In this document: piece after piece, positions 2,403 through 37,511 of the stretch
Layout: the number at the start of each line of letters is the position of its first letter
Position numbering within the stretch: the first letter of the stretch is position 1
Assembly: GCA_030446715.1 (NCBI GenBank)
Contig: JAUJMU010000009.1
Coordinates: forward strand, 62,001 to 126,000
Source of the DNA: Cytophagales bacterium
GTDB lineage: Bacteria; Bacteroidota; Bacteroidia; Cytophagales; 172606-1
Reading direction: 5' to 3'
DNA: 64,000 bases
Notes under the pieces: generated by a model
Database searches by the model: none
What the model was told of the DNA's origin: nothing
Seen by the model: the letters and a program-made list of their open reading frames with translations, nothing else
Made by a program: the position numbers and the translations under genes

Positions 2403-2497
2403 ATTCAATAATATTGAATAATACGTTTACATTACAATTATATGACAGTCTATTGGATAAATCAAGTTTTATATTGAATTTATTTATTATAATGTAG
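2403..2497 (-). promoter_or_regulatory. Promoter module of the SusC gene, shared with 11615-11709
   Basis: Read on the minus strand, a TTG (2463-2465) lies exactly 20 nt before TATAATTG (2435-2442). This matches the Bacteroidota -33 TTG and -7 TAnnTTTG arrangement with one mismatch. Predicted start is near 2430, giving a leader of about 35 nt. Just inside the transcript is the palindrome TTCAATAATATTGAA (2404-2418, 7-bp arms). Another TTCAATA lies upstream of the -33 box. The whole segment aligns without gaps to 11615-11709 (about 78 of 95 identical by eye). Promoter boxes are seen; regulator binding at TTCAATA is inferred. Confidence 0.7.
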
Positions 2498-2743: not shown

Positions 2744-5530
2744 TCAGAATGGATCTCCGAAGTAGAAATACAACGTGGCCTCCGGTTCGGGTTGCAGGGG
2801 ACTGAACTGATTCTGCTCACTGGCGGGGCCGGAGGCTTCCGGCACAGTAAATTTGGTACCAATGGCCGGAATGGCGTGCATGAATGAAATGGTTCCGGCC
2901 GGAAAGGGGGGTGCGGTATTGTTATTATTGCCGGCCCCCTGCTGCCGGGTAGGGGTAAGCATGCGCAGGTAAAGATTTTCCGTGGCCGACACTACCGTAA
3001 TGGGGGCTTCGGTGGTCTGAATAATGGCCCAGTAGAGGTCCGAGTGGTAACCCCTGAACTCGGGGTACTGCCAGGTCTCGCCGGTGCGGGTGTCGTTGTA
3101 TTTTTTCTCCCACACGCCCAGTTCTACTCCTTTCGTCCGGTTTTTCCAGACGCGGTAAGGACCGTCGCCCAGCCAGCGCATCCCGGTGATTTTGGCTTCC
3201 GGGTAGTCAAAATTGACTCCCGCAAAATCCACCGTGCCCTTGACCTGGTACCGGTAGTCGAGCCGCAGCCAGCCCCCGGGCAGCATCCGCCACCGGACCG
3301 GGCGCAACGCACCCTGGTAGTTTACCTCCACCACATAGTCATTGCCGTCGGCGTAGTGTCTCAGGTTTTCGAAGCGGGCCGTGCCCGGAGCCAATACCGG
3401 GCCGTTGGTCAGGGAAATAGCGCTTTTGCCGTTGTTTGCCCCGGCGAGTAAGCCCGTTTTCTTATCGAACTTAACGGCAATTCCGTGAGCCGTCAGGGTG
3501 ATAAAATCCACGTCTTCAGCCGCGGTGACTTTGCCCGTTCTTCCACCCGCAGCCGTAAGGGCGGCGGCCAGTTGGGCCGGACGTTTGACGGGAAATACCC
3601 AGGTGTAAATCTCCCGGCCGTGGGGATCGGTTGCCGTCAGGCGCAGGGCATCCGCCGCCTGCCAGCCGGCGGGCAAAGGGAGCTTGAGGTGTCCCTTGCC
3701 ACCGGGGGCCAGGTCCACGGGAGGCAGGCGACCGCCCGGATGGGTATTACCGGCAGCCGTACCCGCCCCGGCGGAGGCGGACGGGGCCGGAAAGGTCACC
3801 AAACTCCACCCGAACTGGCACTGGTTTAAGTTGGTATAGTGGTAGCGGTTTTCGAGGGTGATCTGGCCGGTAAAGGTGGGTGTAATGTGAAAAGGCTCCA
3901 CGTAAACCGGTGACCAGATTTGCTTGATGGTGTAGAAACTGCCCTCTTTTTCCCGGTATGGACCCACAATGCCGTCCGGGGCGTGGCTGCCGTCAGTATC
4001 CAGGCTGTCGTTTTTATCCCGGCGGACGATGCCCTCGTCGGAAAAACACCACAGGAAGCCACCCGCCGACAAAGGATGTTGCCACATGGCCGTCCAGTGG
4101 TCATCGAGTCCCGCGCCGTGGCCCCCGTCGTAGAGGCCGTGCAGGAACTCGGTGGGGAAAAAGATTTCGTTGCCATTGAACAGCGAACCGGTGCAGCAGC
4201 CGAAAGGCCGGTAGTGCTGCGTATCGGTGCCGTTGAATACTTCCCACGGGTGGATGACGTGTCGCCCCTGCGGGTCCCACCTGGCAAACTCACGGTCCAG
4301 TTCCCGGTTCCAGCCGCCTTCGTTGCCGTTGTCCCAGAGCACAATGCTGGGGTGGTTGACGTCCCTGATCACCAGTTCCCGCACCAGTTTGCGGCCTACT
4401 TCCGTGTCGTAGGCTTTCTGCCAGCCGGTCAGCTCGTCGAGCACGAACAGCCCCAGTGAGTCGCACACATCCAGAAAGTGCTGGTCGGGCGGATAGTGCG
4501 ACATGCGCACGGCGTTCATGTTCATGTCCTTCATCAGAAGTACGTCCGTGATGCTTAGCGCCTTGCTGGTCGTGCGGCCGGAGGTTGGCCAGATCGAATG
4601 GCGGTTTACGCCTTTGAACTTGATCTTTACGCCGTTGACGTAAATGCCGTCGCGGGGCCTTACTTCCACCGTGCGGAAACCGAACTTTTGGGTAAGGGTA
4701 TGCACGGTACCGGCCGCATTTTTCAGGCTGAGCCTGACCTGGTACAGGTTGGGAAACTCCGGGCTCCAGGGGTTGGGCGTCTTAACCCCTGTTTGCAGGC
4801 GGACGGAAGTGGCTTTTTTAGGAATGGCGGCCGAAAAAACTGCCCCCACCGGCTGGCCGTCGGGTGTCTCGATCTGTCCTTCCACCAGCCGGGCGTCTTT
4901 CACCCCTTGTAAAAATATGTCTGCCCTGAAAGTGCCATCGGCTCTGGCATCTACGGCCAGCCGTTCGATGAATTGGGCGGGGAACGCCTCCAGGTAAACC
5001 GGCCGGAAAATGCCCCCGAACACCCAGAAATCCGATTGCCGCTCGGCGCGGTTCACCGACGTGTCGGCCGACATTTTGCTCACGGTCACTTCCAGGAGGT
5101 TGGACCTGCTGGGCAGCAGCAGGCGCGTCACGTCGTAGCGGAACTGGTAGAAGGCCCCCTGGTGCACTGGCCCGGCCGGTTTGCCGTTCACTTTCACTTC
5201 CGTGTCGGTCATGGAACCCTCAAAGACCAGGTACACCCGCTTGTTGTTCCAATGCTGCGGCAGCGAAAAGGTGTGTTTGTAGAGCCCTTTCTCGTCGCCC
5301 TTCTTTTTATCGTGGCCGTAGTTATAGGTGCCGAACCCTTGCAGTTCCCAGCAGGAGGGAACGGGGATTGTCGTCCATTTGCCGCTGTTGCGACCGCCGG
5401 TGCAGTAGAAATCCCACGCAACCGTGTGATCTTTATCGGTGCCGGAGAGGTAAAGGGTTTCCGTTGGTTGCGCGGTAGCCGCCCCCAGAAACAGCAACGT
5501 AAACAGAAAACAAAAACAAAATTTTATCAT
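2744..5530 (-). CDS. Glycoside hydrolase family 2 (beta-galactosidase-like)
   Basis: Exported retaining glycosidase, probably acting on galactoside- or uronide-type linkages of the glycan imported by this locus. A signal peptide (about residues 1-20, ending GAATAQ) is followed by the GH2 sugar-binding domain (NYGHDKKKGDEKGLYKHTF region, 70-180), an Ig-like domain (185-290) and a TIM barrel from about 295 (GVNRHSIWPTSG; AVRMSHYPPD). The acid/base is probably Glu404 in WDNGNEGGWN and the nucleophile Glu461 in FPTEFLHGLYDGG. A beta-galactosidase small-chain-like region follows (MRWLGDGPYRVWKNR). Its length (928 aa) suits secreted GH2 enzymes. It starts 45 bp after the stop of the 5576-7231 gene, so the two are probably cotranscribed. 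Exact specificity cannot be read from the sequence. Confidence 0.9.
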   Translation of the reverse strand: MIKFCFCFLFTLLFLGAATAQPTETLYLSGTDKDHTVAWDFYCTGGRNSGKWTTIPVPSCWELQGFGTYNYGHDKKKGDEKGLYKHTFSLPQHWNNKRVYLVFEGSMTDTEVKVNGKPAGPVHQGAFYQFRYDVTRLLLPSRSNLLEVTVSKMSADTSVNRAERQSDFWVFGGIFRPVYLEAFPAQFIERLAVDARADGTFRADIFLQGVKDARLVEGQIETPDGQPVGAVFSAAIPKKATSVRLQTGVKTPNPWSPEFPNLYQVRLSLKNAAGTVHTLTQKFGFRTVEVRPRDGIYVNGVKIKFKGVNRHSIWPTSGRTTSKALSITDVLLMKDMNMNAVRMSHYPPDQHFLDVCDSLGLFVLDELTGWQKAYDTEVGRKLVRELVIRDVNHPSIVLWDNGNEGGWNRELDREFARWDPQGRHVIHPWEVFNGTDTQHYRPFGCCTGSLFNGNEIFFPTEFLHGLYDGGHGAGLDDHWTAMWQHPLSAGGFLWCFSDEGIVRRDKNDSLDTDGSHAPDGIVGPYREKEGSFYTIKQIWSPVYVEPFHITPTFTGQITLENRYHYTNLNQCQFGWSLVTFPAPSASAGAGTAAGNTHPGGRLPPVDLAPGGKGHLKLPLPAGWQAADALRLTATDPHGREIYTWVFPVKRPAQLAAALTAAGGRTGKVTAAEDVDFITLTAHGIAVKFDKKTGLLAGANNGKSAISLTNGPVLAPGTARFENLRHYADGNDYVVEVNYQGALRPVRWRMLPGGWLRLDYRYQVKGTVDFAGVNFDYPEAKITGMRWLGDGPYRVWKNRTKGVELGVWEKKYNDTRTGETWQYPEFRGYHSDLYWAIIQTTEAPITVVSATENLYLRMLTPTRQQGAGNNNNTAPPFPAGTISFMHAIPAIGTKFTVPEASGPASEQNQFSPLQPEPEATLYFYFGDPF

Positions 5531-5575: not shown

Positions 5576-7231
5576 TTACTGTACGACAACCTTGACTACT
5601 TCCGGCTTTCCGGTTGGGGAGAAAGCTTTGATCAAATAGGTGCCTGGACGGTATTTGGATAAGTCGATGGCAGCATCGGCACTGCTACTGAAATTTACAT
5701 CCGTTATTTTTTTCCCGGCCAGATCGTATACGGCTACCCGTAACGCTTCCGTTGGGTTGTGAATTCGGATGTGAACGATCCCCGATGCAGGGTTAGGATG
5801 TACGGACAACTTAGAGTTGCCGGCAACCGAAGCATTTTCTTTGGCTGATTCGGTTCCTTTCCGGGCACCGCTGGGAATAGTGGCGATAAATACAGTTACT
5901 GAGTTTGCCGGCGTGGAAAAGGTGTTTGTAGAGATGGTTTTGGCCCAGGAAATAGTAGTCTCCGCGTATCCGGCGGAAGAAATAACCCGCTTCAGTATCT
6001 GATCAGCGGATGGTGCCCAGGTTCCGGCTTTCAGGCTCACCCTTTGCGTATTCTGGCTACGGTTGATCACCACAAACATCATTTTCCCATCAGACGTGTT
6101 TCGTACAGTAAGCCCGTCAACCAGCGTATCAATGTCCGAAATTGTTCGCATTACGCTTCCCAGGGCATACTGACCAAAGAGTTTGAAAACGTATCCCCCC
6201 GGATTGAGACCGCTGAAATCACTTTTTATTTTTCCGTAGCGTCCGTCTTCCGCATTCCAGGCAAATACGGCGTCCGCTTTGCCGTTGTTGAGCAGATTCT
6301 TAAGCACCAGGGCATCAAATACAGCGCCTACGTGATTGGTCATATTCTGGTAGCCCGGCGCGTCCCAGGAGTAGTAAATATTCCATTCATCCAGCCAGAT
6401 CGGTACGGTACCAAAGCCCCTGGCATTTAACCTGGAACGAACGTTGTTAATGCCGCCGTTGAAATTAGCTTTCTTATAAATAACAGGAATGGACGTTTCG
6501 CCCCCGCTGCCGTAGTTGTGATGGCTCCATACGTCCAGGTATTGGCCGCCTAAATTGTAAAGAAAATGATCAATGTCACTGTCCCAGGGTTGCCGCCAGG
6601 CGCCGCCCACCAGCTTAATGGTGCTGTCTTTGGCTTTCATGGCATCGTGACATCTTTTAAAAATATCAGCCAGGTGCCACATGTCACTTGACCCCTTGTA
6701 GGCGCCGCCGTCTTTCTCGTTAAAAGGCTCCCAGTATTTTACTTTATAGCCCAGCCCGAGCTGGTTGTTAACGATATCCACCAGATCGGCGCAAAAGGAG
6801 GCATATTCCGTTTTTTTATCATCGTCCAGCTTGCCGTCATTATTGGTATCCATCCAGGTAGGCCAACCGGTAATGGTGATCAAGACATCCGTAGCGGAAG
6901 CGGGTTTGTTGGTGAGTACACTGCCTATTTTCGTTTTATTCCAGACTTTGTTGGTGTAGTCTATCCAGCTATAGGCATGACCCTCTTTAATTTGTTCGCT
7001 GGCGTGGTACCGTATTATTTTTGGTTTAAGTTCACCCACTCTGGCTTGGAAAGAGGCGTTACCAGCCACTACAGGATCAAGAGCCCGCTGGAAATTGAGG
7101 CAATAATATTCAGATCTGGCCGTGGAGACAATTGTATTCATGTCAACAGTAAGGGTAGTGGTAGTCTGCCCCTGTGCCATCCGGCAAAGAAATACGCAGT
7201 TGAGCAGGAAAATCCATAATCTGTTTTTCAT
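5576..7231 (-). CDS. T9SS-secreted clan GH-A glycosidase (GH39-like)
   Basis: Secreted glycosidase with a TIM-barrel catalytic domain. A signal peptide (MKNRLWIFLLNCVFLCRMAQG) precedes a barrel carrying the probable acid/base Glu172 in YWEPFNEKDGG and nucleophile Glu282 in PIWLDEWNIYY. These positions fit clan GH-A (GH39, GH30, GH79, GH86 are possible; I cannot choose). A beta-sandwich follows, and residues 472-551 form a type A T9SS sorting domain (LSVHPNPASG, GTYLIKAFSPTGK), so it should reach the cell surface or medium through the type IX system. It shares its architecture with the larger enzyme encoded upstream (7406-11542) and is probably in the same transcription unit as GH2 downstream. 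Confidence 0.88.
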   Translation of the reverse strand: MKNRLWIFLLNCVFLCRMAQGQTTTTLTVDMNTIVSTARSEYYCLNFQRALDPVVAGNASFQARVGELKPKIIRYHASEQIKEGHAYSWIDYTNKVWNKTKIGSVLTNKPASATDVLITITGWPTWMDTNNDGKLDDDKKTEYASFCADLVDIVNNQLGLGYKVKYWEPFNEKDGGAYKGSSDMWHLADIFKRCHDAMKAKDSTIKLVGGAWRQPWDSDIDHFLYNLGGQYLDVWSHHNYGSGGETSIPVIYKKANFNGGINNVRSRLNARGFGTVPIWLDEWNIYYSWDAPGYQNMTNHVGAVFDALVLKNLLNNGKADAVFAWNAEDGRYGKIKSDFSGLNPGGYVFKLFGQYALGSVMRTISDIDTLVDGLTVRNTSDGKMMFVVINRSQNTQRVSLKAGTWAPSADQILKRVISSAGYAETTISWAKTISTNTFSTPANSVTVFIATIPSGARKGTESAKENASVAGNSKLSVHPNPASGIVHIRIHNPTEALRVAVYDLAGKKITDVNFSSSADAAIDLSKYRPGTYLIKAFSPTGKPEVVKVVVQ

Positions 7232-7405: not shown

Positions 7406-10400
7406 TTATCGCCTCACCTGGAGTTTTTTGGTAGTAAGCCTGCCCCCGGAGGTTACCGTGACTAGGTAAAAACCTTCCGGCAACCCACTTACATTCACTT
7501 CCAGGCTATTTGAGCCGGCCTGCAACCAATAGTCTCTTTCCTGTACCTGCCGGGAAAAAAGATCGGTAAGCCTAATCCGGGCTGGTCCGGCCTCTATTGC
7601 CTGGATGCGCAGGGTAACCTGATCGGTAGTTGGATTGGGAAACAGGCTCAGTTGGACCGGTTCGGTTTCTGCCAACATCGGTGCTTCTGCTGAGGTAGCG
7701 GTTGTACGGGCCTGCGTTTGCGCAACCGGCTCTTTGGTTGGATCGGTAACCAGCAGGTAATCTACCTGCGGGGTGGCGCCTCCTACCGTAGTGAGCCTGA
7801 TGGTATTCGCCCCTTTCAGCAGGGAAGCACCCAGCGCTACGGTTTGCCAGCTCCCGGAAGAAAGCGTTGCCGGAAACGCCAGCCGACTGTTCACCACAGT
7901 TCCGTTAACCGAAAGACACAGATAGCCTTCTTCACCGGTATTGTCATCGTCGGCGCGGGTATACCGGAAGGTCAGGCGGTAACTGCCCGCGAAAATACCT
8001 TTCACATTCCACTCAAGGGAATTGCCTCTGGGAGCGGCTAATTGCACGTACCCACGGCCGGAGTAGCCCTTGAAGGCGGTTCTCACCTGGGCTCCGGATA
8101 AAGTTGCGTTTTCGGCTTCGTAGGTAGTGCTGGCCGGGGGCAGGGTCGTGACGCTCAGGGCGCTGGCGTCCGACCCGTTCCCGGCGGCGTCAAGGGCTTT
8201 TACCGTAAAGGTGTACCCGGTACCAGCCGTCAGTCCGGTAACGGACAGTTGCGTCCCCGTAAGCGCGGCCGCATTCACCTTTACGCCTTCCTGGTACACC
8301 TCATACCCGGTTACCGCTACGTTATCGGTGGAGGCCTGCCAGGACAGCGTCAGGCCGTACGGCGTCACGGAAGCAGCCGCTAGCTGGGCCGGGGCACTGG
8401 GCGGCACGTTGTCGGGGGTGGTAACCGTTACGGCATTGCCGGCCGGGGACGCATTACCGGATTCATCCCGGGCTTTTACCGAAAAGGTATACGTTTGGGC
8501 GGAGGTTAAACCAGCTACGGTAAACGTGGTACCCGTCGTAGAACCCACCCGCGTGGTGCCGTTGTAAAGATCATAGCCGGATACTTCCGTATTATCCGTA
8601 GAGGCAGTCCAGCTTAACTCTACTTGAGTAGGGGCAACGGAAGTAGCCGCCAGGTTACCCGGAATGGTGGGCGCCTGCGTATCGGGTTTGCCCAGCCGGA
8701 GGTGGTCCATAAACAGAACGGCGGCACTGTCGGCATTGCTGACGGACATGAGCCGTATTTGTTTGATGCGCTTGGGATTGATCGAACCAAAGCCCCCCGC
8801 GAAGTCGAGCGTAAAGGTTGCGTACGCATTGGTTCCCTTCACGTAGAGGGTAAACTTTGAATTATCCACCGATTCGCCCTGGTCATCCACCAGCTTCACC
8901 CGCAGGTTCACCGGAAAATTGCTTTTCAGGTCAACCGAAAATACCGCGTTGGCCGTCAGGTTAACGGGTCTTTGCAGCGTGGTCACGTACACGTTCTTGT
9001 ACTGGGCTACATCGTTCAGCGTCAGGCGTAATTCTTCGTTCTGCTTCAGACTGACGGGACTGTTGGCCGAAGTGGTTTGCACGGTATCGTTCACCACATT
9101 GCCGGAGAAATCATTCGCCAGTGAAGTAGGTGTGAGCACGGCCGCTCCGGGGCGGGCCACGAAAGGCAAGGTAGTAACCGCCAGGGGGGCGCTGCCGACG
9201 GATTCGTTCCCGACGAGGTCCCGGGCTCTGACGGTAAAGCTATACGTAGTATCAGACTCCAGCCACGTAGCGGTATAACTGGGAGTGGTCAGCAACGAAG
9301 GGTTCAGTTTGGTGCTGCCGGCGTACACGTCGTACCCGTCAACGCCTTTGTTGTCGGTGGCAGCCGTCCAGCGCAACGCAGCCGAGTGCGGGGTGATGTC
9401 CGACGCAACCAGGCCGGTTGGGGCCGTAGGAGGCTCCACGTCATCGAGCTTGATGCCCAGCTTAAGGTCATCCATGAAAATGACGGCATCGAGGGGGGCG
9501 CCGTTGAAGTTGGAAATTTTGATCCCCTTGATGCTCCGGGCGTTTACCGCTCCGAATCCGGCCTGGGCAAAATCAAGTCTTTGGGTACGGTACACATTGT
9601 CGCCGGCCAGGTACAGCGTGTTCTGTCCGTTATCTACCTCCTTGCCGGTGTCGTCAAACAATTTCACCCGCAAATTGACTTTTGCACTGCTTTTGATTTT
9701 TACCGAGAACGTGGCATTGGCGGCCAGCACGATGGACCTTTTGAACGTGGTCACGTATACGTGCTCGTACTGAGGCAGATCAGCCGCGGCCAGCCGCAGT
9801 TCTGCATTTTGCCGGATGTTTACCCGGCTGGCCGCCGTGGTGGTTTGCACGGTATCGTTCACCACATTTCCGGAGAAGGTATTCTCCAGCGAGGAAAGCG
9901 TAAGAATGGCCGACCCGGGCCGGGCTACGAAAGGGGCAGTCGTAACGCTCAGGGGAGCACTGGCGGGAGATTCCAGTCCCGTATTCCCTCTTGCTTTCAC
10001 CGTAAAGGTGTAATTCGTACCCCCATCCAGCCAGGAAGCCGTGTAAGCGGTAGTGGTCACAATGCCGGTGTTCATTTTGGTACTTCCGTTGTACACATCG
10101 TACCCGATAAGGCCTGCATTGTTGGTCGGAGCCGTCCAGGACAGATTTACACTGTTATCAGTAATGGTACCGGCCTTCAGAGCAGTTGGTGCCGAGGGCA
10201 CCTGGCTGTCTTCAATTGCCGTGGTAATCAGCGTCACGGAATAGGGAGCCAGGGCCAGGTCGCCGGGCGTTACAGTAATCGTCTCGGGCAGCATGCCACT
10301 CTCATTGATCTGCATGCTCCGCAGGGTTTCCCCTCCGGCAGGAATCAGCAGGTTTCCGCCACCCGGCACGGTGATGGTCTGGCTGGTTTTGTTCATCAGG

Positions 10401-11542
10401 AGCAATGACCGCTTTCCGTTGGCAAGTAGTACCGGCAACACTTCCACGGTAGAGTCCGGCACGCTGCTCCCGGCTAAACGACCGTGCAGGTACCGGTTGC
10501 CCCAATTGTAGAGGGAACCCGTTGCCCGCTGATTGTTATTGCCATCAATCAACCCGTAGGCATTGCCTTTCACGTGCCATACGTTGGTCCCGGTAACGTG
10601 ATTAACCGCAGCCCGGCGCACGACACAAGCCTGGAAAACGGCACCCACGTGATTGGTATGACGCACTTCAAACGGGTCCCACGTCCACTGCACGTTGAAT
10701 TCAGTCAGGAAAGTCTCTTTCTGCAAGCCCCTTTTCTGCAGGGAACTCATCATGTATTTGGCGTTTTTCTCAATTTGGTTGAGTAAGTTGAAAAAGATTC
10801 TATCATTGGGAGTAGAAGGATTGCCCGAGGCGTAGTTATGCCAGGTGACAAAATCCAGTTTGGGGGCGGAAATGTCCATGAAACTCTCCACCCAGAGCGG
10901 ATTAGGCCAGGTAAGCGCCGGACCTCCCACTTTGGTATTTGGATCAATGGCCTTGATGCCGGCCGCGATCTTATTTACCAGGTTCCACAGGTCGGGTAGA
11001 CGGCCGGCTTTTTCGTATAAACCCTCCCTTTCGTTGGTGATTTCCCAATAGGCCACTTCGCGCTTTACCGAATCACGCATGATAATGACCAGGTCGGTGC
11101 ATAGTTTGGTAAACTCTTCCTCATTAGCGGTTGGCAGGGGGCCACTGGTAGGAGCCAGCCAGGAGGGCCACTTGGGAATGTTCAGCAAAATCTTGGCGTC
11201 GCCGTAGCCGGTAGCATTCCCAAACCCGGCCTTGATCTTGGCTACATCCCAGGTTCTGGTGGTAGGATTGGTCCATAGGTCCGTTAAGCTTGCGTGGTGA
11301 ATCCGGATAAGTTCAGGGTTTAACTGGGTTACATACTGATTAAAGCCACTGTTGGCCGCAATGGTAGGGTTGCGGATCTGTTCATCGTTAACCCCCCATA
11401 GTTTGGGGCTGATCTCGCCTGCGGTAGTATTCCAGTCCACACTGACCCGGGCTGTTTGGGCAAAAACATGACCTTGTATCCCCACCAGGAAGGCACAAGT
11501 CAGCAGGAAGAGGAGTTGGTTAGGGGAGTAGTGTGTTTTCAT
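7406..11542 (-). CDS. Large T9SS-secreted multidomain glycosidase (clan GH-A, four FN3, CBM)
   Basis: Extracellular glycan-degrading enzyme of 1,378 residues. I start at the ATG at 11542 because MKTHYSPNQLLFLLTCAFLV begins a clear signal peptide; an ATG at 11620 falls inside the leader palindrome. The catalytic TIM barrel (about 30-360) has the probable acid/base Glu171 in AYWEITNEREG and nucleophile Glu281 in TFLTEFNVQW. Then come FN3 (447-536), a beta-sandwich (537-698), FN3 (701-792), a second copy of the sandwich (793-950), two more FN3 (953-1134), a CBM6/35-like domain (1141-1268, YEAENATLSG) and a T9SS sorting domain (1295-1378, LSLFPNPTTDQ). The FN3-sandwich unit is a tandem duplication still visible in DNA. 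It is expressed from the promoter module at 11615-11709. Confidence 0.9.
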   Translation of the reverse strand: MKTHYSPNQLLFLLTCAFLVGIQGHVFAQTARVSVDWNTTAGEISPKLWGVNDEQIRNPTIAANSGFNQYVTQLNPELIRIHHASLTDLWTNPTTRTWDVAKIKAGFGNATGYGDAKILLNIPKWPSWLAPTSGPLPTANEEEFTKLCTDLVIIMRDSVKREVAYWEITNEREGLYEKAGRLPDLWNLVNKIAAGIKAIDPNTKVGGPALTWPNPLWVESFMDISAPKLDFVTWHNYASGNPSTPNDRIFFNLLNQIEKNAKYMMSSLQKRGLQKETFLTEFNVQWTWDPFEVRHTNHVGAVFQACVVRRAAVNHVTGTNVWHVKGNAYGLIDGNNNQRATGSLYNWGNRYLHGRLAGSSVPDSTVEVLPVLLANGKRSLLLMNKTSQTITVPGGGNLLIPAGGETLRSMQINESGMLPETITVTPGDLALAPYSVTLITTAIEDSQVPSAPTALKAGTITDNSVNLSWTAPTNNAGLIGYDVYNGSTKMNTGIVTTTAYTASWLDGGTNYTFTVKARGNTGLESPASAPLSVTTAPFVARPGSAILTLSSLENTFSGNVVNDTVQTTTAASRVNIRQNAELRLAAADLPQYEHVYVTTFKRSIVLAANATFSVKIKSSAKVNLRVKLFDDTGKEVDNGQNTLYLAGDNVYRTQRLDFAQAGFGAVNARSIKGIKISNFNGAPLDAVIFMDDLKLGIKLDDVEPPTAPTGLVASDITPHSAALRWTAATDNKGVDGYDVYAGSTKLNPSLLTTPSYTATWLESDTTYSFTVRARDLVGNESVGSAPLAVTTLPFVARPGAAVLTPTSLANDFSGNVVNDTVQTTSANSPVSLKQNEELRLTLNDVAQYKNVYVTTLQRPVNLTANAVFSVDLKSNFPVNLRVKLVDDQGESVDNSKFTLYVKGTNAYATFTLDFAGGFGSINPKRIKQIRLMSVSNADSAAVLFMDHLRLGKPDTQAPTIPGNLAATSVAPTQVELSWTASTDNTEVSGYDLYNGTTRVGSTTGTTFTVAGLTSAQTYTFSVKARDESGNASPAGNAVTVTTPDNVPPSAPAQLAAASVTPYGLTLSWQASTDNVAVTGYEVYQEGVKVNAAALTGTQLSVTGLTAGTGYTFTVKALDAAGNGSDASALSVTTLPPASTTYEAENATLSGAQVRTAFKGYSGRGYVQLAAPRGNSLEWNVKGIFAGSYRLTFRYTRADDDNTGEEGYLCLSVNGTVVNSRLAFPATLSSGSWQTVALGASLLKGANTIRLTTVGGATPQVDYLLVTDPTKEPVAQTQARTTATSAEAPMLAETEPVQLSLFPNPTTDQVTLRIQAIEAGPARIRLTDLFSRQVQERDYWLQAGSNSLEVNVSGLPEGFYLVTVTSGGRLTTKKLQVRR

Positions 11543-11614: not shown

Positions 11615-11709
11615 ATTCAATATAATTGAATAATAACTTTACCATACAATTATATGATGGTTATTTGGATATATCAAGCTTTATATTGAATTATTTTTTT
11701 ATATTGTAG
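11615..11709 (-). promoter_or_regulatory. Promoter module of the large glycosidase gene, shared with 2403-2497
   Basis: On the minus strand TTG (11675-11677) is followed after exactly 20 nt by TATAATTG (11647-11654). Next comes the palindrome TTCAATATAATTGAA (11616-11630), with the same order and spacing as at 2403-2497. Predicted start is near 11642, leaving about 100 nt of leader before the ATG at 11542. Sequence between the two boxes is less conserved than the boxes and palindrome. Confidence 0.7.
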
Positions 11710-18133: not shown

Positions 18134-18270
18134 TTCATTGTCAATAAGTAGTTATTGGTTATTCGTTGCTGGAGATGATTGTTGATGAGTTACATAAATG
18201 AATAGTCTGAAATAATTTGTCTGAGTACTTATCTTGTCTTTTGATGCTAAAATATAGTCTCTCCCTACTG

Positions 18271-19878
18271 ATGCGGAAGCAGTACGTTCTCCTTGCCTTT
18301 TTGCTGCTTACGGCGGGTGGCTTCCTCAGCCTGATCCCGCCGTCAACCAAACCATCCGCCAAACCCAATATCATCATCATCCTGGCCGACGACATGGGGT
18401 ATTCCGACATTGGCTGCTTCGGCTCGGAAATCAATACCCCCAACCTGGATGCCCTGGCCGGGGGCGGGCTGAGAATGACCCAATTCTACAATGCCTCCCG
18501 TTGCTGCCCGACGAGGGCCTCTTTGCTGACGGGTTTGTATCCGCACCAGGCAGGCGTCGGCGAAATGGTGGACCGCCGGCCGCATCCCTCCTACCAGGGC
18601 TACCTGAACCAGCACTGCGTCACCATTGCCGAAGCCCTGAAGGCGGGCGGCTACCGGACGCTGATGGCCGGCAAGTGGCACGTAGGGGGCAAACCGGAGC
18701 ACTGGCCGCGCCGGCGGGGCTTTGACCGGTACTTCGGACTGATTGACGGCGCCAGCAGTTACTTCAACAGCAAACCCTACCGGCCCAACCAGCGCCTGAC
18801 CATTGCCCTGGATGACGCCCCCTACACGACGGGCGAAAATTTCTATGCAACCGATGCGTATACCGATTACGCCCTGAAGTTCCTGTCGGAAAAGAATACC
18901 CAAAAACAGCCCTTCTTTCTCTACCTGGCGTATACGGCGCCGCACTGGCCCCTCCACGCCCTGCCGGAAGACATTGCGCGGTACAAAGGAAAGTACCGCC
19001 GGGGTTGGGACACCCTGCGGGCCGAACGGTACCGGCGCATGCAGGCGATGAGGCTCCTCGACAAAACCACCCGGCTGTCGCCGCGGGATGAAAATGTGCC
19101 GGCCTGGGAATCGCTGACGGAAAGCGAAAAAGAAGCGTGGGACGAAAAAATGGCCGTGTACGCCGCCATGGTTGACCGCATGGACCAGAACATCGGCCGG
19201 CTGCGGCAGCACCTGAAGAAAACCGGTGCCGATCAAAACACCATCATCCTGTTTTTATCCGACAACGGGGGCAGCCACGAAAGCATCGCAGGCAAAAATT
19301 TTACGCCGGAAGTGCTGGCCAGCCACACCCAACCGGTCGGCAGCCCGGCTTCTTTTACCGCTTACCAATACCCCTGGGCCAATATGAGCAATACCCCGTT
19401 CCGGTCGTTCAAGCACTGGGAGTACGAAGGCGGCACCGCTACGCCCTTCATTGCCTATTTTCCGGGAGTGATCAAAGCCAACACCCTAGACCACCGGCCG
19501 GCGCACGTGGTTGACCTGATGGCGACCTGCCTGGACCTGGCCGGCGTTGCCTATCCGGCTGCCTTCCGGGGAAACCCGGTCACGCCAACCGAAGGCGTAA
19601 GCCTGACGCCCCTGTTCAAAGGACAGCCCTGGACCGGACACCAAGCCATTTTCTTTGAACACGTGGGCAACCGGGCCGTACGGCAAGGCGACTGGAAGAT
19701 AGTTTCCAGCCATCCGGAGACCACCTGGCACCTGTATAACCTCAAAAATGACCGTTCCGAACTTACCGACCTGAGCGCCGGGCAACCGGAAAAAGTAAAA
19801 GAATTGGCGGCCCTCTACGAGGCCTGGGCCAGCCGGGCCGGGGTGCTGCCCCGGGAACAGGTAGCCCGGAAGGAGTAA
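18271..19878 (+). CDS. Sulfatase (type I, arylsulfatase-like)
   Basis: Formylglycine-dependent sulfatase that hydrolyses sulfate esters, probably from a glycan. I prefer the ATG at 18271 (MRKQYVLLAFLLLTAGG, a good signal peptide); ATGs at 18217 and 18244 are possible. Metal ligands appear in IIIILADDMGYSDIG, the modified cysteine is Cys78 in RCCPTRASLLTG, GKWHVGG carries the Lys/His pair, and FLSDNGG the later Asp-Asn metal ligands. The C-terminal subdomain (ATPFIAYFPG, RQGDWKIVSS) is complete. No maturase gene is in the window. It is the last intact gene of the plus-strand cluster starting at 12820. Confidence 0.93.
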   Translation: MRKQYVLLAFLLLTAGGFLSLIPPSTKPSAKPNIIIILADDMGYSDIGCFGSEINTPNLDALAGGGLRMTQFYNASRCCPTRASLLTGLYPHQAGVGEMVDRRPHPSYQGYLNQHCVTIAEALKAGGYRTLMAGKWHVGGKPEHWPRRRGFDRYFGLIDGASSYFNSKPYRPNQRLTIALDDAPYTTGENFYATDAYTDYALKFLSEKNTQKQPFFLYLAYTAPHWPLHALPEDIARYKGKYRRGWDTLRAERYRRMQAMRLLDKTTRLSPRDENVPAWESLTESEKEAWDEKMAVYAAMVDRMDQNIGRLRQHLKKTGADQNTIILFLSDNGGSHESIAGKNFTPEVLASHTQPVGSPASFTAYQYPWANMSNTPFRSFKHWEYEGGTATPFIAYFPGVIKANTLDHRPAHVVDLMATCLDLAGVAYPAAFRGNPVTPTEGVSLTPLFKGQPWTGHQAIFFEHVGNRAVRQGDWKIVSSHPETTWHLYNLKNDRSELTDLSAGQPEKVKELAALYEAWASRAGVLPREQVARKE

Positions 19879-19941
19879 TGCTGCCGTAAAGAAACCACTC
19901 TGCTTGCTACGGACCCGGGGCAAATGCATAGTTTTACCGCA

Positions 19942-20548
19942 ATGGCGCAGGATTACGACAAGATTTTCCGGGAAGTACTGAAGGACATTTTTCCGGCCGT
20001 AGCCCGGAAAGTACTGGGCATTCCCGAGGGGCAGTACAAACCTTTGCCGGTGGATTTGCAGTATACTTCCGAACGGGAAGCCGATCAACTCTGGGAAGTC
20101 ACTCCCACCACAGGAGAGCCTTTCGTGCTGCACTGCGAATTTCAGAGCACAAATGACAAGCAGATGCTTGCCAGGATGCTCCTCTACTACGGCTTTTTGT
20201 ACTACCAGAAGAAACTGCCGGTCCATCAGTACGTGCTTTACGTAGGCAGGGACAAGCCGCAAATGGACCATCAGCTGCAAGTCAGGAGCCTGATTTTCTC
20301 CTACCGGTTGGTAGACCTGAAAACCTTTCCCCTACCAGACCTTTCTCCAGTCGGATCACAGCGAAGAGGTACTGCTGGCCATCCTGGCCGACTTCCGGGA
20401 CGAGTCCGGGGAGTTGGTTGCCGAAAAGATAATTGCTAAATTGGAGGAACTGTCCGGCGGAAAGCTGGAGTTATCGCAACGTCAGGCGAGAGCAAAAGAA
20501 ACAAATAAAGTATTAACTTTTCCTGAAAAACTCATACCCTTTGGCTAA
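19942..20548 (+). pseudogene. Rpn-family nuclease/transposase-like gene, N-terminal part, frameshifted
   Basis: The Rpn (PD-(D/E)XK, recombination-promoting nuclease) family N-terminal domain is recognisable from MAQDYDKIFREVLKDIF through FVLHCEFQSTNDKQML and LPVHQYVLYVG. After VDLKTFP one extra C in the CCCC run at 20329-20332 shifts the frame. The other frame then continues with the conserved QTFLQSDHSEEVLLAILADF to about KLEELSGGKLELSQ, after which homology is lost and a stop comes at 20546. The matching C-terminal part appears 0.9 kb downstream at 21413-21674, with the AT-rich Rpn gene 20541-21329 in between. Start at 19942 is chosen because it matches MANDYDKI of the neighbour. Probably inactive. 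Confidence 0.75.
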
Positions 20549-21329
20549 CGATTACGACAAGATACTTAAAGAAAATATTGCTGCTTTACTTTTACCGCTG
20601 ACAGAAAAGTACCTGAATATTAAAATCAAGGATAGCCGCGAACTGAAAGACAAGCTGCAAACTACCATAGAAAAAGAGCCAGACTTTATACGGATTGTGA
20701 AGTCCGATACTGAAGAAGAGTTCATCCTGCACATAGAATTTCAGAGCCAGGATGAAGAAGGGATGATTTACCGGATGCAGGAGTATTATGGATTGCTGCG
20801 CAGAAAGCATCAACTACCGATAAAGCAATTTGTCATCTATTTGGGTAAACAGGCATCTAAAATGCCAACCCGGTTGACACCGGACGAGGTATTTACCGGC
20901 TTTACCCTGAAAAGCTTACGTGACTATTCTTACGAAAACCTGTTGAATTCGCAGATTCCAGAGGAGATAATCTTAGCTATTCTGAGTGATTTCAACAAGC
21001 AGAAATCCACAGAAGTAATCCGGCGGATATTAGAAAAGTTAAAAGAAATCGGAGCAGAAGAAATTACGTTAAGAAAATTTATCCGCCAGTTGGCTGTTTT
21101 AGCCAGGCTACGCAACTTGACAAAAGAAACACAAAAACAGATACAGGATATGGGACTTACCTACAATATTACTGAAGATTACCTTTTCCAGGAAGGCCAG
21201 AAGAGTAGAGAAAAAGCTATGATTATTAAAATGCTGAAAGATAAAACATTAAGCGTTGAGAAGATTGCTGAGATTGCAGAAGTAACAGTGGATTATGTGA
21301 AACAAGTAGAAAAAGAGTTGAAAAAATAA
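20541..21329 (+). CDS. Rpn-family PD-(D/E)XK nuclease/transposase-like protein
   Basis: Full-length (262 aa) member of the Rpn recombination-promoting nuclease family, often annotated as a putative transposase. It begins with TTG (MANDYDKILKENIAALLLPL) overlapping the last codons of the preceding remnant; no in-frame ATG fits better. The nuclease core is at about 45-110 (PDFIRIVKSDTEEEFILHIE, HIEFQSQDEEGM, QLPIKQFVIYLG) with the typical acidic and EFQ residues, followed by IPEEIILAILSDF, RQLAVLARLRNL and a helical C-terminal tail (VEKIAEIAEVTVDYVKQVEK). Its codon use is much more AT-rich than neighbouring genes, which suggests acquisition. It appears to lie inside an older Rpn gene. Confidence 0.85.
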   Translation: MANDYDKILKENIAALLLPLTEKYLNIKIKDSRELKDKLQTTIEKEPDFIRIVKSDTEEEFILHIEFQSQDEEGMIYRMQEYYGLLRRKHQLPIKQFVIYLGKQASKMPTRLTPDEVFTGFTLKSLRDYSYENLLNSQIPEEIILAILSDFNKQKSTEVIRRILEKLKEIGAEEITLRKFIRQLAVLARLRNLTKETQKQIQDMGLTYNITEDYLFQEGQKSREKAMIIKMLKDKTLSVEKIAEIAEVTVDYVKQVEKELKK

Positions 21330-21412
21330 AGCCCTCGCCTAACGCCTGACATTAGCTATTCCAGTCACCAGGCCGCCAACGCGCAGAGCTCGAACAGGAG
21401 GCCACGGCGCTG

Positions 21413-21674
21413 TATAACCATGTCCAGGCCCTGCAACTGGTACGTTTAGCTGTACTGAGAAATTTAGGCAAAACCGTATTTAACCTGTCAAAGAAGATGG
21501 CCATTACCATTGACATTAAAGAAGACGCCCTCGCTAGGTCAGGAGGAAGGCAAACAAGAAACGGCCTTGAATATGCTCAAAGAAGGCTTTCCGGAAGAAG
21601 TCGTGGCGCGGATCACCGGACTGCCCCCGGAGCGCATTGCCCAGCTCAAACAGCAACTGGAAGCCGGCCGGTAA
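21413..21674 (+). pseudogene. C-terminal remnant of the GC-rich Rpn-family gene
   Basis: The frame from YNHVQALQLVRLAVLRNLGK through MAITIDIKEDAL matches the part of Rpn proteins just after the nuclease domain (compare RQLAVLARLRNL of the intact neighbour). A small indel near 21536 then shifts to a frame reading EEGKQETALNMLKEG and ending TGLPPERIAQLKQQLEAGR plus TAA at 21672, the usual tail of this family. GC-rich codon use matches the 19942-20548 fragment, so the two pieces are probably halves of one gene. Confidence 0.65.
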
Positions 21675-21760
21675 GGGGAATGGTGTATAGGGTATTTTTG
21701 ATATGCCATCACTTAAAATTTTAAGATTCACAATTTAAAATTGCGCAGCTACCCGGCGGT

Positions 21761-23215
21761 TCACCGGCGGGCCGGCTGACCGTAGGCCGGGTTGGGCACG
21801 GGCATCCGGGCGTTGACTGCCCGACGCCAGTCTTGCAGCCGCCGGTGCAGTTCAGCGGCTTTGTCCGGCATTTCTCCGGCTAAATCCCGCGTTTCGCCTA
21901 TGTCTTCCCGCACGTTATACAGTTCCAGACGGCCGTCTTCGTAAAATTCGATCAGCTTATAGTCTCCCTGCCGGACGGCGCCGCCCGGTTTGCCGCCCTG
22001 GTTGCTGTAGTGCGGGTAATGCCAGAAAATAGCCTCCCGTTCGCCCTGCCTCCCCTGCAGGAGCGGCAGAAAACTTTTCCCGTCCACGGGCGGAGTACCG
22101 GCCGTGATTCCGGCTATTTCCAGCAGGGTCGGATAAAAGTCTACGCTGCTCACCGGCACGCGGCACTCCGAACCCGCTTTGATCCGGCCGGGCCAGGCCA
22201 CAATGAGGGGCTCGCGGATGCCGCCTTCGTAGAGGTGTCCCTTGCCCTTCCGGAGCGGCGCATTGGAAGTAGCCGGCGTATGAGGCCCCTCCCTGACGGA
22301 AAGTCCGCCGTTGTCGGACATAAAAATAAATACGGTATTCTCCGATAGCCCCTTTTCCCGCAGGGCCCGGGTGATCCGGCCTACGCTGTGGTCCACGCTC
22401 CCGGTCATGGCGGCGTAATGGGGGTTGAAGGCAGCCGTATCGGAGCCGGCTTTCTGCCGGTACTTCTGCAGCAGATCCGGCCTGGGCTGGATGGGGATAT
22501 GGACGGCATAGTGCGCCAGGTACAGGAAAAAGGGCTTTTCGCGGTTGGCTTCGATAAACTGAATGGCTTCGGTGGTGAGGCGGTCGGTCAGGTATTCACC
22601 TTCCCGGCCACCCGCCCGCAGTTCCGGCAGGCTGAAACCATCATTCACGTGGTAGGGATAGAAGTAGCCCGGCGGCGTACCGTAATGGTAGCTGGCGATG
22701 CTGGTATCAAACCCATGATTTTTGGGCAGAAAAGGTGCCTTGCCCAGGTGCCACTTGCCGATGCTGGCCGTGGCGTAGCCGTTTTTCCGCAGGATTTCCG
22801 CCAGCGTGTGCTCCTCAAGGGGCAGTTCCAGCCGGAAATCCGGCGGCAGCAGCTTATCCGTGGGTTGCGGGCCTTTGGTGTGCTGCCGGCCGGGGATCCA
22901 GTCGGTGATGTTCAGCGTAGCCGGATACTTACCCGTGAGGATGCTGGCCCGGGTAGGCGAACAAACGGGACAGGCCGCGTAAGCATCGGTGAATTTCATG
23001 CCCCGGGCGGCCAGTTGGTCAATGGCCGGCGTTTCGGCGAAGCGGTTGCCGAAGCAGCCCACGTCACTCCAGCCCATATCGTCCACCAGCAGGAACACGA
23101 TGTTCGGGGGACGCCTGCCCTGCTTTTGTTCCGGGCGGTTGACCTGACAGCTGGTCGGTGACAGCCAGATTACCGTTAACAGAAAAATAAACAGGCAGTC
23201 TGTCCGTAGCGTCAT
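21761..23215 (-). CDS. Sulfatase (type I)
   Basis: Formylglycine sulfatase, third gene of the sulfatase / PLP-enzyme / sulfatase set. I start at ATG 23215 (MTLRTDCLFIFLLTVIWLSP, signal peptide); upstream in-frame ATGs overlap the end of the 23337 gene region. The N-terminal metal site is VFLLVDDMGWSDVG, the modified cysteine is Cys85 in CPVCSPTRASILTG, the Lys/His pair is in GKWHLGK, and the later site is in FMSDNGGLS. C-terminal elements HLYEGGIREPLIVAWPG and RQGDYKLIEF are present. The TSC near residue 23 could be a weak lipobox. It resembles N-acetylgalactosamine-6-sulfatase-like enzymes, but the site attacked cannot be told. Confidence 0.92.
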   Translation of the reverse strand: MTLRTDCLFIFLLTVIWLSPTSCQVNRPEQKQGRRPPNIVFLLVDDMGWSDVGCFGNRFAETPAIDQLAARGMKFTDAYAACPVCSPTRASILTGKYPATLNITDWIPGRQHTKGPQPTDKLLPPDFRLELPLEEHTLAEILRKNGYATASIGKWHLGKAPFLPKNHGFDTSIASYHYGTPPGYFYPYHVNDGFSLPELRAGGREGEYLTDRLTTEAIQFIEANREKPFFLYLAHYAVHIPIQPRPDLLQKYRQKAGSDTAAFNPHYAAMTGSVDHSVGRITRALREKGLSENTVFIFMSDNGGLSVREGPHTPATSNAPLRKGKGHLYEGGIREPLIVAWPGRIKAGSECRVPVSSVDFYPTLLEIAGITAGTPPVDGKSFLPLLQGRQGEREAIFWHYPHYSNQGGKPGGAVRQGDYKLIEFYEDGRLELYNVREDIGETRDLAGEMPDKAAELHRRLQDWRRAVNARMPVPNPAYGQPARR

Positions 23216-23336
23216 AAAGAAAAATTTACTGAAGTGCAGGAATAATTCACAGAACTTACGTACCTGTGCCAGCCCGGCCCTGGCAAGGGCACGGACTATA
23301 CTATACATAAACACCCGGTCACTTTTGCCCGGTTGC

Positions 23337-24434
23337 TCAGATGCTGATGGCCCGGTCCCGGGCAATTACCTTCCAGCTTTTTACGCACCGGTGATCTTCC
23401 ACCACCCACACGGAATCGTACAGCGCCACCGTGGGGCAAATGTGCCAGGGAACGCCGTACCACACCTGCCCGACCGGGTGTTTGTCCGCATCGGGCACCC
23501 GCACCACCAGGTGCTCCTCACTCTGGCTGAGCGGTTTTGCGTCCGCCACGTTCAAAAATCTGATCCGCGGCAAGGGATTCTCGGCGGCTACCGACTTATG
23601 CCCCACGTCAAGGCACAGGGTATGGGCGTCCACTTTGGAAATCACTCTCACCAGCAGCACGGCGGCAACGGCAAAAAGCAGGTCCGGCAGCGTGGTCCGG
23701 TACCCTTCGTCCCAGAAAACGAACGTGCCCGGGCTTACTTCTACCCCGGGCTGCCCCGCGTACCGGGGGAAGGTGGGGGTGCCGCCCATTACCAGTTTTA
23801 GGGGGGCGCCGGTCAGGGCTTCGAGGCTTTCTCTGACGGCGGCTACCCGCGCAAACACTTCGTCGGCCTGCCGCTGCCGGACCGCCAGATCGGTGTCGTG
23901 AATGTGGCCGTCGTAGGCGTGCAGCCCAACTACGCCCAGGGACGGCAGGGTTTGCAGATACCGGTACAGGGCTACGGCATTTTCCGGCGGCACACCGGTC
24001 CGGTTCATGCCCACGTTCAGGTCCACGTAAACGTTCATTGTCCGGCCGGCAAAAGCGGATGCCAGTTCCCGGGCGGTCTGTTCGTTGTCAACCAGACAGG
24101 CAAACTGCACCCGGGGGAATGCCCCCACCAAGGCAGCCAGTCGCCTGATTTTTGGTCCGGCCGGCTGATAAGCGAGTAAAACATCGGCGGCGCCAGCCCC
24201 GGCCAGCATCTCAGCTTCGGCAATGGTGGCGCATTTGAATCTGGTAATTCCTCCGGCCAGCAGCAGTTGCGTGACTTCCGCCATCTTGTGCGTTTTTACG
24301 TGCGGCCGCAGCACCGCGGCATCCGGCACCAGCGCCTTAACCAGCGTGATGTTAGACCTGATCCGCCCGGGGTACACCAGCAGGGCCGGGGAGTCCACCT
24401 CGTGCTCATTCGCAATCCGGTACCATTCTTCCAT
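23337..24434 (-). CDS. D-threonine aldolase / D-serine dehydratase-like PLP enzyme
   Basis: Fold-type III PLP enzyme of the alanine racemase N-terminal superfamily acting on D-amino acids (aldol cleavage of D-threonine types or dehydration of D-serine). RPHVKTHK near residues 43-50 carries the PLP lysine. MNRTGV, GLHAYDGHIHD and VMGGTPTFPRY line the barrel, and the C-terminal domain has WHICPT near residue 325. The HxC pair resembles the zinc site of eukaryotic-type D-serine dehydratases (HxD in the D-threonine aldolases I recall), so the exact reaction is open. The start is 1 bp past the stop of the upstream sulfatase, so translation is probably coupled. No signal peptide is visible: cytoplasmic, unlike its neighbours. 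Confidence 0.85.
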   Translation of the reverse strand: MEEWYRIANEHEVDSPALLVYPGRIRSNITLVKALVPDAAVLRPHVKTHKMAEVTQLLLAGGITRFKCATIAEAEMLAGAGAADVLLAYQPAGPKIRRLAALVGAFPRVQFACLVDNEQTARELASAFAGRTMNVYVDLNVGMNRTGVPPENAVALYRYLQTLPSLGVVGLHAYDGHIHDTDLAVRQRQADEVFARVAAVRESLEALTGAPLKLVMGGTPTFPRYAGQPGVEVSPGTFVFWDEGYRTTLPDLLFAVAAVLLVRVISKVDAHTLCLDVGHKSVAAENPLPRIRFLNVADAKPLSQSEEHLVVRVPDADKHPVGQVWYGVPWHICPTVALYDSVWVVEDHRCVKSWKVIARDRAISI

Positions 24435-24435
24435 G

Positions 24436-25920
24436 CTACGGCAAAGGTTTTACGGCGGCTGACTGATTGTCTTTCAAACGCCAGATGCCGGACGGCGTAC
24501 GGGCCTTTTGTAAATACTCCTCCAGTTGCGCTACCACCGACGGATGCGCGGCTGCCACGTTTTGCCGTTCCCCGGCATCCGGTTGCAGGTTATACAGCTC
24601 CAGGGGCTGCGACGGACCCGGCCGGAAGCCTTTCCAGTCGCCCATCCGGATGGCCTGGCTGGAGGTTTTGTTCTCGTGGAACTCCCAGTACAGGTACGGG
24701 TGCTGTGGCTGCTGTTTGCCCAGTAACTCGGGCAGGTACGAAATCCCGTCGGTTGGCGGGGCCTGGATGCCCGCCAGCTCGGCAGCGGTCGGCATAAAAT
24801 CCCAGAAGGCGGATACGTGGTTACTCACCGCACCGGCTTTGACCGTGCCCGGCCAGCGCACAATAAAAGGGACCCGGATGCCGCCTTCGTACAAATCCCG
24901 CTTCACGCCCCGCAAGGGACCGGCACTGTTGAAAAAGGCCGGATCGGCACCGGCTTCCTGATGCGGTCCGTTGTCACTGGTGAAGATGACAATCGTATTT
25001 TCATCCAGACCCAGTTTTTTCAACTGGTCTAATACCCGTCCCACGTGCTGGTCGAGGCGGGTGACCATGGCGGCAAAAGCCGCGCGGGGAGTTGCCTGCG
25101 AATTGTACGTGCCCAGGCTGTCGTCTATCCGCTTGCCCTGCGAAGGTTTTACGTAGGGTTTCTCGGGAAACCTGCCCTTGAACTGCGCCAGAACTTCGTC
25201 GTCCGGATGCAGCAGTTCGGCGTGGGGGATGGTATAAGCCAGGTACAGAAAAAATGGTTGTTTGTTTTCCTTGTTCTTCTCCAAAAACGTGAGGGCTTCT
25301 TCCGTGAACAGGTCCTGGACGTATTGTTCCCGTTTTCCGTTCCGGTTGCCGGGCAGTTCTACTTTCCCGCCGTTGCGCCACAGGTATTCGGGGTAAAAGA
25401 AATGCGCGTGGCCCTGGTTGAGAAAACCGAACGAATAATCGAAACCCTGCCGGGTGGGTTCGCCGGTGGTCCCTTCCACGCCCAGGCCCCATTTGCCCAC
25501 CAGCCCGGTGGTGTATCCGGCTTTTTTCAGGACTTCGGCCAAGGTACTATCCGCCGGCCTCAGTTCCACGCCGGCGCCAAAACCTTTCGGCCCGGTTTCG
25601 TAATTCCCGCGGATCAGCGCGTGGCCGGTATGCAGGCCGGTCATGAGGGCTGCCCGGGAAGGGGCGCACACCGGGCTGCCGGCGTAATGCTGGGTAAAAC
25701 GCATCCCTTCTGCCGCCATCTGGTCCAGGTGGGGCGTGCTGAACCTGGTCTGGCCGTAGCAGCTCAGGTCGCCGTAGCCCAGGTCGTCGGCCAGGATGTA
25801 AATGATGTTGGGCCGAACCGTTCCGGTTGCTTTTGTTTCCGCGCCTTCCCTGACTTTGCCCGAACACGCCGGCAAAATCGTACCCAGCAGTAAAATGAAA
25901 AGAAACCTCCGGATAGTCAT
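24436..25920 (-). CDS. Sulfatase lipoprotein (type I, arylsulfatase-like)
   Basis: Formylglycine sulfatase with a lipoprotein signal: ILLLGTILPAC places the lipid cysteine at Cys19. The metal site is IIYILADDLGYGDLSC, the modified cysteine is Cys85 in GSPVCAPSRAALMTG, the Lys/Gly region is VGKWGLGVEG (Trp-Gly where others have Trp-His), and IFTSDNGPHQEAG carries the later metal ligands. DLYEGGIRVPFIVRWPG and RMGDWKGFR complete the C-terminal subdomain. It is the first gene after the SusC/SusD block and is separated from it by a strong hairpin, so it may have its own promoter. It is tightly coupled to the PLP enzyme downstream. Confidence 0.92.
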   Translation of the reverse strand: MTIRRFLFILLLGTILPACSGKVREGAETKATGTVRPNIIYILADDLGYGDLSCYGQTRFSTPHLDQMAAEGMRFTQHYAGSPVCAPSRAALMTGLHTGHALIRGNYETGPKGFGAGVELRPADSTLAEVLKKAGYTTGLVGKWGLGVEGTTGEPTRQGFDYSFGFLNQGHAHFFYPEYLWRNGGKVELPGNRNGKREQYVQDLFTEEALTFLEKNKENKQPFFLYLAYTIPHAELLHPDDEVLAQFKGRFPEKPYVKPSQGKRIDDSLGTYNSQATPRAAFAAMVTRLDQHVGRVLDQLKKLGLDENTIVIFTSDNGPHQEAGADPAFFNSAGPLRGVKRDLYEGGIRVPFIVRWPGTVKAGAVSNHVSAFWDFMPTAAELAGIQAPPTDGISYLPELLGKQQPQHPYLYWEFHENKTSSQAIRMGDWKGFRPGPSQPLELYNLQPDAGERQNVAAAHPSVVAQLEEYLQKARTPSGIWRLKDNQSAAVKPLP

Positions 25921-25988
25921 GGATATAGCTTGAGTTTGAGACTGGAGACGTTAGGTAATGACTGCTGCGCAAGATACTACTTTAACCA

Positions 25989-26033
25989 GTGTTTCCCCCT
26001 CTCATTCCCGGAGGGAATGAGAGGGGGAAACAC
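25989..26033. terminator. Perfect 21-bp inverted repeat after the SusC/SusD block
   Basis: Bases 25989-26009 and 26013-26033 are exact reverse complements with a 3-nt loop (GGA); the core is CCCCCTCTCATTCCC/GGGAATGAGAGGGGG. It lies between the stop of the SusD gene (26130) and the sulfatase start (25920). Stem length and position suit a terminator or a palindromic repeat. It shares the CCCCTCTC theme with the element at 2603-2697. Confidence 0.75.
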
Positions 26034-26129
26034 ACCTTTTTAACCGTTGCCTGACTGAGAATAAGCTAAACGCATTCCGCTCAGCTACTCAACGTGATTG
26101 TCTCACATTTCCTGTCTGAAATCTGTCTT

Positions 26130-36953: not shown

Positions 36954-37511
36954 GGGGTGAACTATACTTTAAACGGGGTGGATCACCGATTTGTCAAAGA
37001 GTTGGAAGTAAAGGGTTAATAAGGCTTGGCGTTGCTTCTGGCGGGTGGCGTTGGCCTCAGGCAAGGTTTGCTCAATGGCCAAGGAGAAACCGGGAAAGTC
37101 TTCGTGGAAGCCCGCATAGAGGCACGTCTTCCTGAGCCACTTCCATAAGCGTTCAATAATATTGAGATCAGGCCGACAGGCAGGAACAAAAGGTGAATGG
37201 ATAGCTTTTGGTCCGCCTGACGAGCCGGCAATGCTGATAACGGGCGTTGTCCAGGACAATACAGAGGGGCGGATAAACAGGCGTGAGAATGACCACAAGC
37301 AACAAACACGCCCATCACAAAGTGAGCCGGGTCCATAAACAACAAGTGTGCTTTGCCTTGCCGGATAATGGGGGTGAACGTGTCGGTTAACCAAACCGAT
37401 ATAGTCAGTATCTGTGTCGGGATGAACTCCGGCTGGTTGGGCAATCTGCTGACTGGTCAACCGCGTCAGATCGCATAAGTGGATTACCTCCATACGTTTC
37501 TGTACTAGCAA
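36954..37511 (-). mobile_element. Degraded IS630-family transposase remnant
   Basis: Minus-strand frames together spell an IS630-type DDE transposase: a helix-turn-helix region (LTRLTSQQIAQ, GVHPDT), HLLFMDPAHFVMGVF with the first Asp, VLDNARYQHCRLV with the second Asp, and PDLNIIERLWKWLRKTCLYA with the Glu. The end LLTLYFQLFDKSV precedes a stop at 36969. The pieces are in at least three different frames and the middle is shortened, so it cannot encode an active enzyme. GGGGTGAACT at 36954-36963 recurs in direct orientation at 37812-37821; I could not find matching terminal inverted repeats. It interrupts the amidohydrolase gene. Confidence 0.75.

Follow-up and report, generated by a model that had tools for sequence, protein, structure and literature searches.

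The window analysed here is a stretch of 64,000 nt from a Cytophagales genome of 6.4 Mb in 25 contigs, and corresponds to C17:62001-126000. It begins with a susC gene on the minus strand (1-2,394; protein of 1030 aa), which continues outside the window and is followed there by genes for SusD, a GH39-like protein, an SSS symporter, an SDR, an RraA-like protein, a heparinase II/III-like protein and a Zn-dehydrogenase. Further left of this susC operon lie kduD and then a divergent gene of the IclR family. Immediately upstream of susC is an enzyme operon with the same orientation, the first gene of which (7,406-11,542, likely ATG at 11,542) encodes a GH39-like glycosidase bearing fn3 repeats, a CBM35 and a T9SS sorting tail according to Pfam. 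This is the glycosidase gene that an earlier note, made from the sequence, had called distant from susC, a description that the layout of the locus contradicts. Its GH39 Pfam match is below the cut-off, while that of its homologue in G001, a relative of the same genus, is above it. A second secreted enzyme-like protein with a T9SS tail is encoded at 5,576-7,231 (minus strand), and its homologue stands behind the GH39-like gene in G001 as well. The last gene of the operon, at 2,744-5,530 on the minus strand, encodes a GH2 glycosidase (Pfam). When the lyase-like and GH39-like proteins were searched against solved structures, only weak matches were obtained. Taken together, the locus resembles a PUL that serves a uronate-containing glycan. 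Elsewhere in the window, three sulfatase genes and a susD (26,133-27,887) form a separate PUL at 18,217-27,887, which has no copy of the module described below and is probably devoted to a sulfated glycan. No tRNA genes were found in the window.

The two transcription units share a 95-bp module. Module 1 (2,403-2,497), before susC, and module 2 (11,615-11,709), before the surface glycosidase operon, both lie on the minus strand and align ungapped with exactly 78 of 95 identities, in agreement with the approximate figure given earlier. The GH2 gene ends just upstream of module 1, and CTCTCC...GGAGAG inverted repeats at 2,600-2,700, between this gene end and the module, are probably the terminator of the enzyme operon. 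BLAST of the own genome with module 1 returned module 2 (82%, E = 9.8e-21) and a next match at E = 0.19 only; no third copy was found in the 6.4 Mb, either by BLAST or by a 26-base pattern with 3 mismatches allowed. When module 1 was slid ungapped over 237 kb of the own and related loci, module 2 scored 78/95, the modules of two relatives scored 70 and 63, and no sequence outside the modules exceeded 52/95. On the BLAST, pattern and slide results, the likeness of the modules is far above chance.

Such a pair of direct copies flanking an operon resembles a duplicated target, and the 95 bp might be read as a mobile repeat or an insertion scar with no regulatory role. We consider this highly improbable, as only two copies exist genome-wide and no dispersed ones, so that module occurrences in a mobile repeat or before unrelated genes, which the earlier note had named as grounds for abandoning its proposal, did not appear. 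Across the order, all matches to module 2 outside the own genome were short (roughly 24-42 bp) and A/T-rich, and no full copy was found in the other genomes outside susC orthologues. Furthermore, the susC copy is ancestral, being present in G001 and in G006 (another genus) where the enzyme operon is not adjacent, and the boxes and palindrome described next have been kept despite 18% divergence. The 95-bp element is real, conserved and regulatory.

Read on the minus strand, each module contains a TTCAAT half-site, a TTG, 20 nt, the box TATAATTG, 16-17 nt, and the dyad TTCAAT-N3-ATTGAA. The primary promoter of Bacteroidota consists of a -33 TTG or TTTG and a -7 TAnnTTTG with about 20 nt between them. 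The TTG-N20-TATAATTG arrangement follows this pattern with one mismatch in the -7 box. Both boxes and their 20-nt spacing are present in the two modules as first reported: the -33-like TTG is located at 2,463-2,465 in module 1 and at 11,675-11,677 in module 2, and the -7-like TATAATTG at 2,435-2,442 and 11,647-11,654, respectively (all minus strand). In an alignment of four modules, the common elements are the dyad arms, the TTG, TA-nn-ATTG (4/4) and a following TA..GTAAA. The conserved upstream parts, i.e., the TTCAAT half near the -33 box and the TA..GTAAA after the -7 box, could be a site for another factor.

The palindrome was previously described as TTCAATA/TATTGAA and placed at the transcript start. 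It is indeed present; it is better described, though, as a 15-bp dyad, TTCAAT-N3-ATTGAA, and it lies downstream of the predicted start. Putative operator 1 occupies 2,404-2,418 and is centred 17 nt ahead of the susC ATG; putative operator 2 occupies 11,616-11,630 and is centred about 81 nt ahead of the glycosidase ATG. Neither is assigned to a strand. The two dyads read TTCAATATTATTGAA and TTCAATTATATTGAA. We take the 95-bp module to be a duplicated promoter together with a putative operator.

A third dyad, TTCAACAATATTGAA, was detected outside the window, 13.7 kb off, at C17:50700-50714, between kduD and the divergent IclR-family gene, and it is conserved in four genomes. The genome was scanned with the 17-bp profile WTTCAAYWWWRTTGAAW, allowing at most one mismatch. 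Four sites were obtained in 6.4 Mb, namely the three promoters of the locus, which span 23 kb, and one site within a response-regulator-like coding frame; at the off-locus rate, the expectation for the 23-kb locus is about 0.004 sites. As the motif was defined from two of the three sites, the independent result is the third one, before the regulator gene. The genome search proposed in the earlier note thus yielded promoter sites only before genes of one glycan locus, the kduD/iclR promoter region included. Its statement that the element is absent from the remaining SusC genes of the window was likewise borne out, for their promoters, by the dyad scan and the 17-bp profile. Several other dyads were set aside. 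The one-mismatch dyad at position 37,152 of the window lies in transposase-fragment-like sequence and fails the 17-bp profile, the exact dyads at C18:281738, C18:795034 and C23:46221 are attributed to chance, all being within open frames, and the one in G002:C153 is within coding sequence. A second iclR-kduD-Zn-dehydrogenase cluster of the own genome, at C18:1663-4152, has a kduD 79% identical and no dyad; its iclR and dehydrogenase frames are broken by apparent frameshifts, representing either pseudogenes or assembly errors.

That the promoter sites are confined to a single glycan locus, and that one of them lies between kduD and iclR, indicates the likely regulator. The IclR-family gene (C17:50765-51508) lies beyond the window, at a distance of 13 kb from susC. 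Its product carries both family domains, HTH_IclR (PF09339; 34.1 bits, curated cut-off 22) and IclR_C (PF01614; 80.1 bits, curated cut-off 24), and the palindromic site before the regulator's own gene and its divergent neighbour is a further feature of the family found here. Against the KdgR model NF011671 it scores 66.9 bits (E = 1.6e-18) where the cut-off is 275, so the protein is KdgR-like and not a KdgR equivalog. The kduD gene, the SSS symporter, the RraA-like protein and the heparinase II/III-like lyase suit a regulator that senses uronates. We conclude that the 15-bp palindrome is most likely the binding site of the nearby IclR-family regulator; the suggestion that a common regulator acts at the TTCAATA sites is thus supported by the site distribution and by the kduD/iclR dyad.

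The dyad might instead be bound by a different regulator, such as the AraC-type protein encoded in the window (37,846-38,763) or one encoded elsewhere in the genome. In favour of this alternative, hybrid two-component systems frequently control the PULs of Bacteroides (PMC11253607). However, the iclR promoter region contains the dyad, conserved in four genomes, a symmetric 15-bp dyad with an A/T-rich spacer fits IclR dimers, and a position downstream of the promoter fits a repressor and not an activator of the AraC or HTCS type; we therefore regard another regulator as unlikely. Even less probable is that the dyad works in the leader, the second option of the earlier note, as an RNA hairpin that affects the stability or translation of the two mRNAs. 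The dyad would be transcribed in susC, in the enzyme operon and possibly in kduD, and folding does yield a hairpin. Nevertheless, the bare 17-mer reaches only -2.1 kcal/mol, dyad and start codon are separated by anything from 9 to about 73 nt, the iclR dyad lies in the -33 region and hence not in the iclR leader, and the dyad is built like a DNA operator to which the adjacent regulator would bind.

Comparison with related genomes revealed two relatives, with SusC proteins 61-63% identical, that have kept both the dyad of the susC promoter and the one between kduD and iclR. In G006 (SusC 61%), a module with 76% identity over 87 bp precedes the orthologous susC, a dyad precedes iclR, and the susC module is 15 kb from iclR on the same contig. 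In G001, the module before susC (70/95, ungapped) and the dyad before iclR are on two unjoined contigs. Among IclR orthologues of at least 69% identity the dyad was found 42-50 nt before the ATG in 4/4, and among homologues below 60% identity in 0/28, an association that is phylogenetically confounded as it partly rests on synteny within one family. In a 96% relative (G002:C192; L019:6000-6250), the kduD side of the iclR intergenic region has been replaced by transposase-like foreign sequence and the dyad is intact. Paralogous IclR genes (40-46% identical) in many Cytophagales (L070-L081) have a common TTTTRCATTATAAAA-like near-palindrome 10-20 nt before the start, which is perhaps the operator of that clade.

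Two Spirosoma-type loci, with an IclR 55% identical and susC beside it, bear a perfect dyad of another sequence, TTTATC-N3-GATAAA, just before susC (L020:9604-9618 and L090:6529-6543). This suggests that regulator and operator may have changed together; it is only a lead, since the two genomes are closely related and chance alone produces a perfect 6-3-6 dyad about every 4 kb. The Spirosoma-type dyads sit in a larger TTGATAAAT...ATTTATCAATGATAAAT array, which resembles three-box IclR sites (PMC8222616).

IclR proteins can also act as activators. At this locus, the dyad just past the predicted start of susC and of the enzyme operon, by the kduD ATG and over the iclR -33 region suits a repressor that limits itself. 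RNA polymerase would use TTG-N20-TATAATTG in both modules, and an IclR-family dimer would bind the 15-bp dyad, 16-17 nt downstream of the promoter boxes and just inside the predicted transcript. Without substrate, the protein on its dyads would block susC, the enzyme operon and kduD, and it would also limit its own gene, because the dyad covers the iclR -33 region. A breakdown product of uronate would then release it; the gene content of the locus is what suggests a uronate intermediate as the inducer. Binding, repression rather than activation, and the effector are what we infer from the sequence. This predicted circuit would allow joint switching of the uptake receptor and the surface-enzyme operon, both belonging to one locus for sugar-acid degradation. 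To the reading as a whole, i.e., a duplicated promoter-operator with a dyad bound by a local KdgR-like IclR repressor and released by a uronate product, we assign a probability of about 0.8.

Regarding the origin of the second copy, the susC module is the older, ancestral one, as judged from its occurrence before susC in G001 and G006. The GH39-like gene and the next T9SS gene have homologues in G001 (59% for the former) that stand behind another SusC/D pair and a FecR gene, and no dyad was found at that locus. Module 2 is probably a duplicated promoter that placed the surface-enzyme operon under the same regulator, and most simply the enzymes would have arrived at this locus and acquired a copy of its promoter-operator. 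Insertion into the old promoter was considered as well, and no homology was found between the flanks of module 2 and the region upstream of susC in G001 or G006. More tentatively, and at somewhat less than even odds, PULs may grow by promoter capture. In that case the enzyme pair of a FecR/SusC/D locus would have moved beside the IclR-controlled PUL, received a duplicate promoter-operator and joined the regulon at once, and sequence changes in the IclR protein and in the susC operator (TTTATC-N3-GATAAA, Spirosoma-type) would have gone hand in hand in more distant Cytophagales. The locus is a likely example of a new enzyme set wired into an existing glycan regulon by promoter copying. Little is known about PUL regulation outside Bacteroides, and here sequence alone yields a small, full and testable circuit, comprising a regulator, three operators and their target operons. 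No prior description of IclR operators in PULs was found in the literature searched.

Among described systems, there is a close likeness with the IclR-family operators of group 1 (Suvorova and Gelfand, 2021; PMC8222616), whose motif is GKTYCRY-W3-4-RYGRAMC. Both have symmetric half-sites with TTC outward and RY inward, a 3-nt A/T spacer and a site near gene starts, also before the regulator's own gene. IclR-family site centres are mostly at -20 to -80 (PMC8222616), a preference that the dyad centres found here (-14 to -81) suit. Compared by eye, arrangement and spacer agree, whereas each half differs at its outermost position and at one inner position, ATTCAAT-N3-ATTGAAT having A/T at the inner C/G and the outer G/C of the consensus. 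The motif is probably not catalogued, since the share of Bacteroidetes/Chlorobi in that survey is at most about 1.6% in any group (PMC8222616). Gamma-proteobacterial KdgR, the regulator of a pectin/uronate regulon, is likewise of the IclR family and has uronate genes as targets, but its site, RWWGAAACGNCGTTTCAKKA, has another half-site order, and the target set predicted here includes SusC/SusD. As with the PUL regulators of Bacteroides (hybrid two-component systems, ECF-sigma/FecR), a SusC/SusD pair would be coordinated with the enzymes of one locus; the likely regulator here, in contrast, is a cytoplasmic ligand-binding IclR protein, with its operator downstream of the promoter. The circuit is a new instance of an already known regulatory kind, and its most interesting aspect is the likely promoter duplication.
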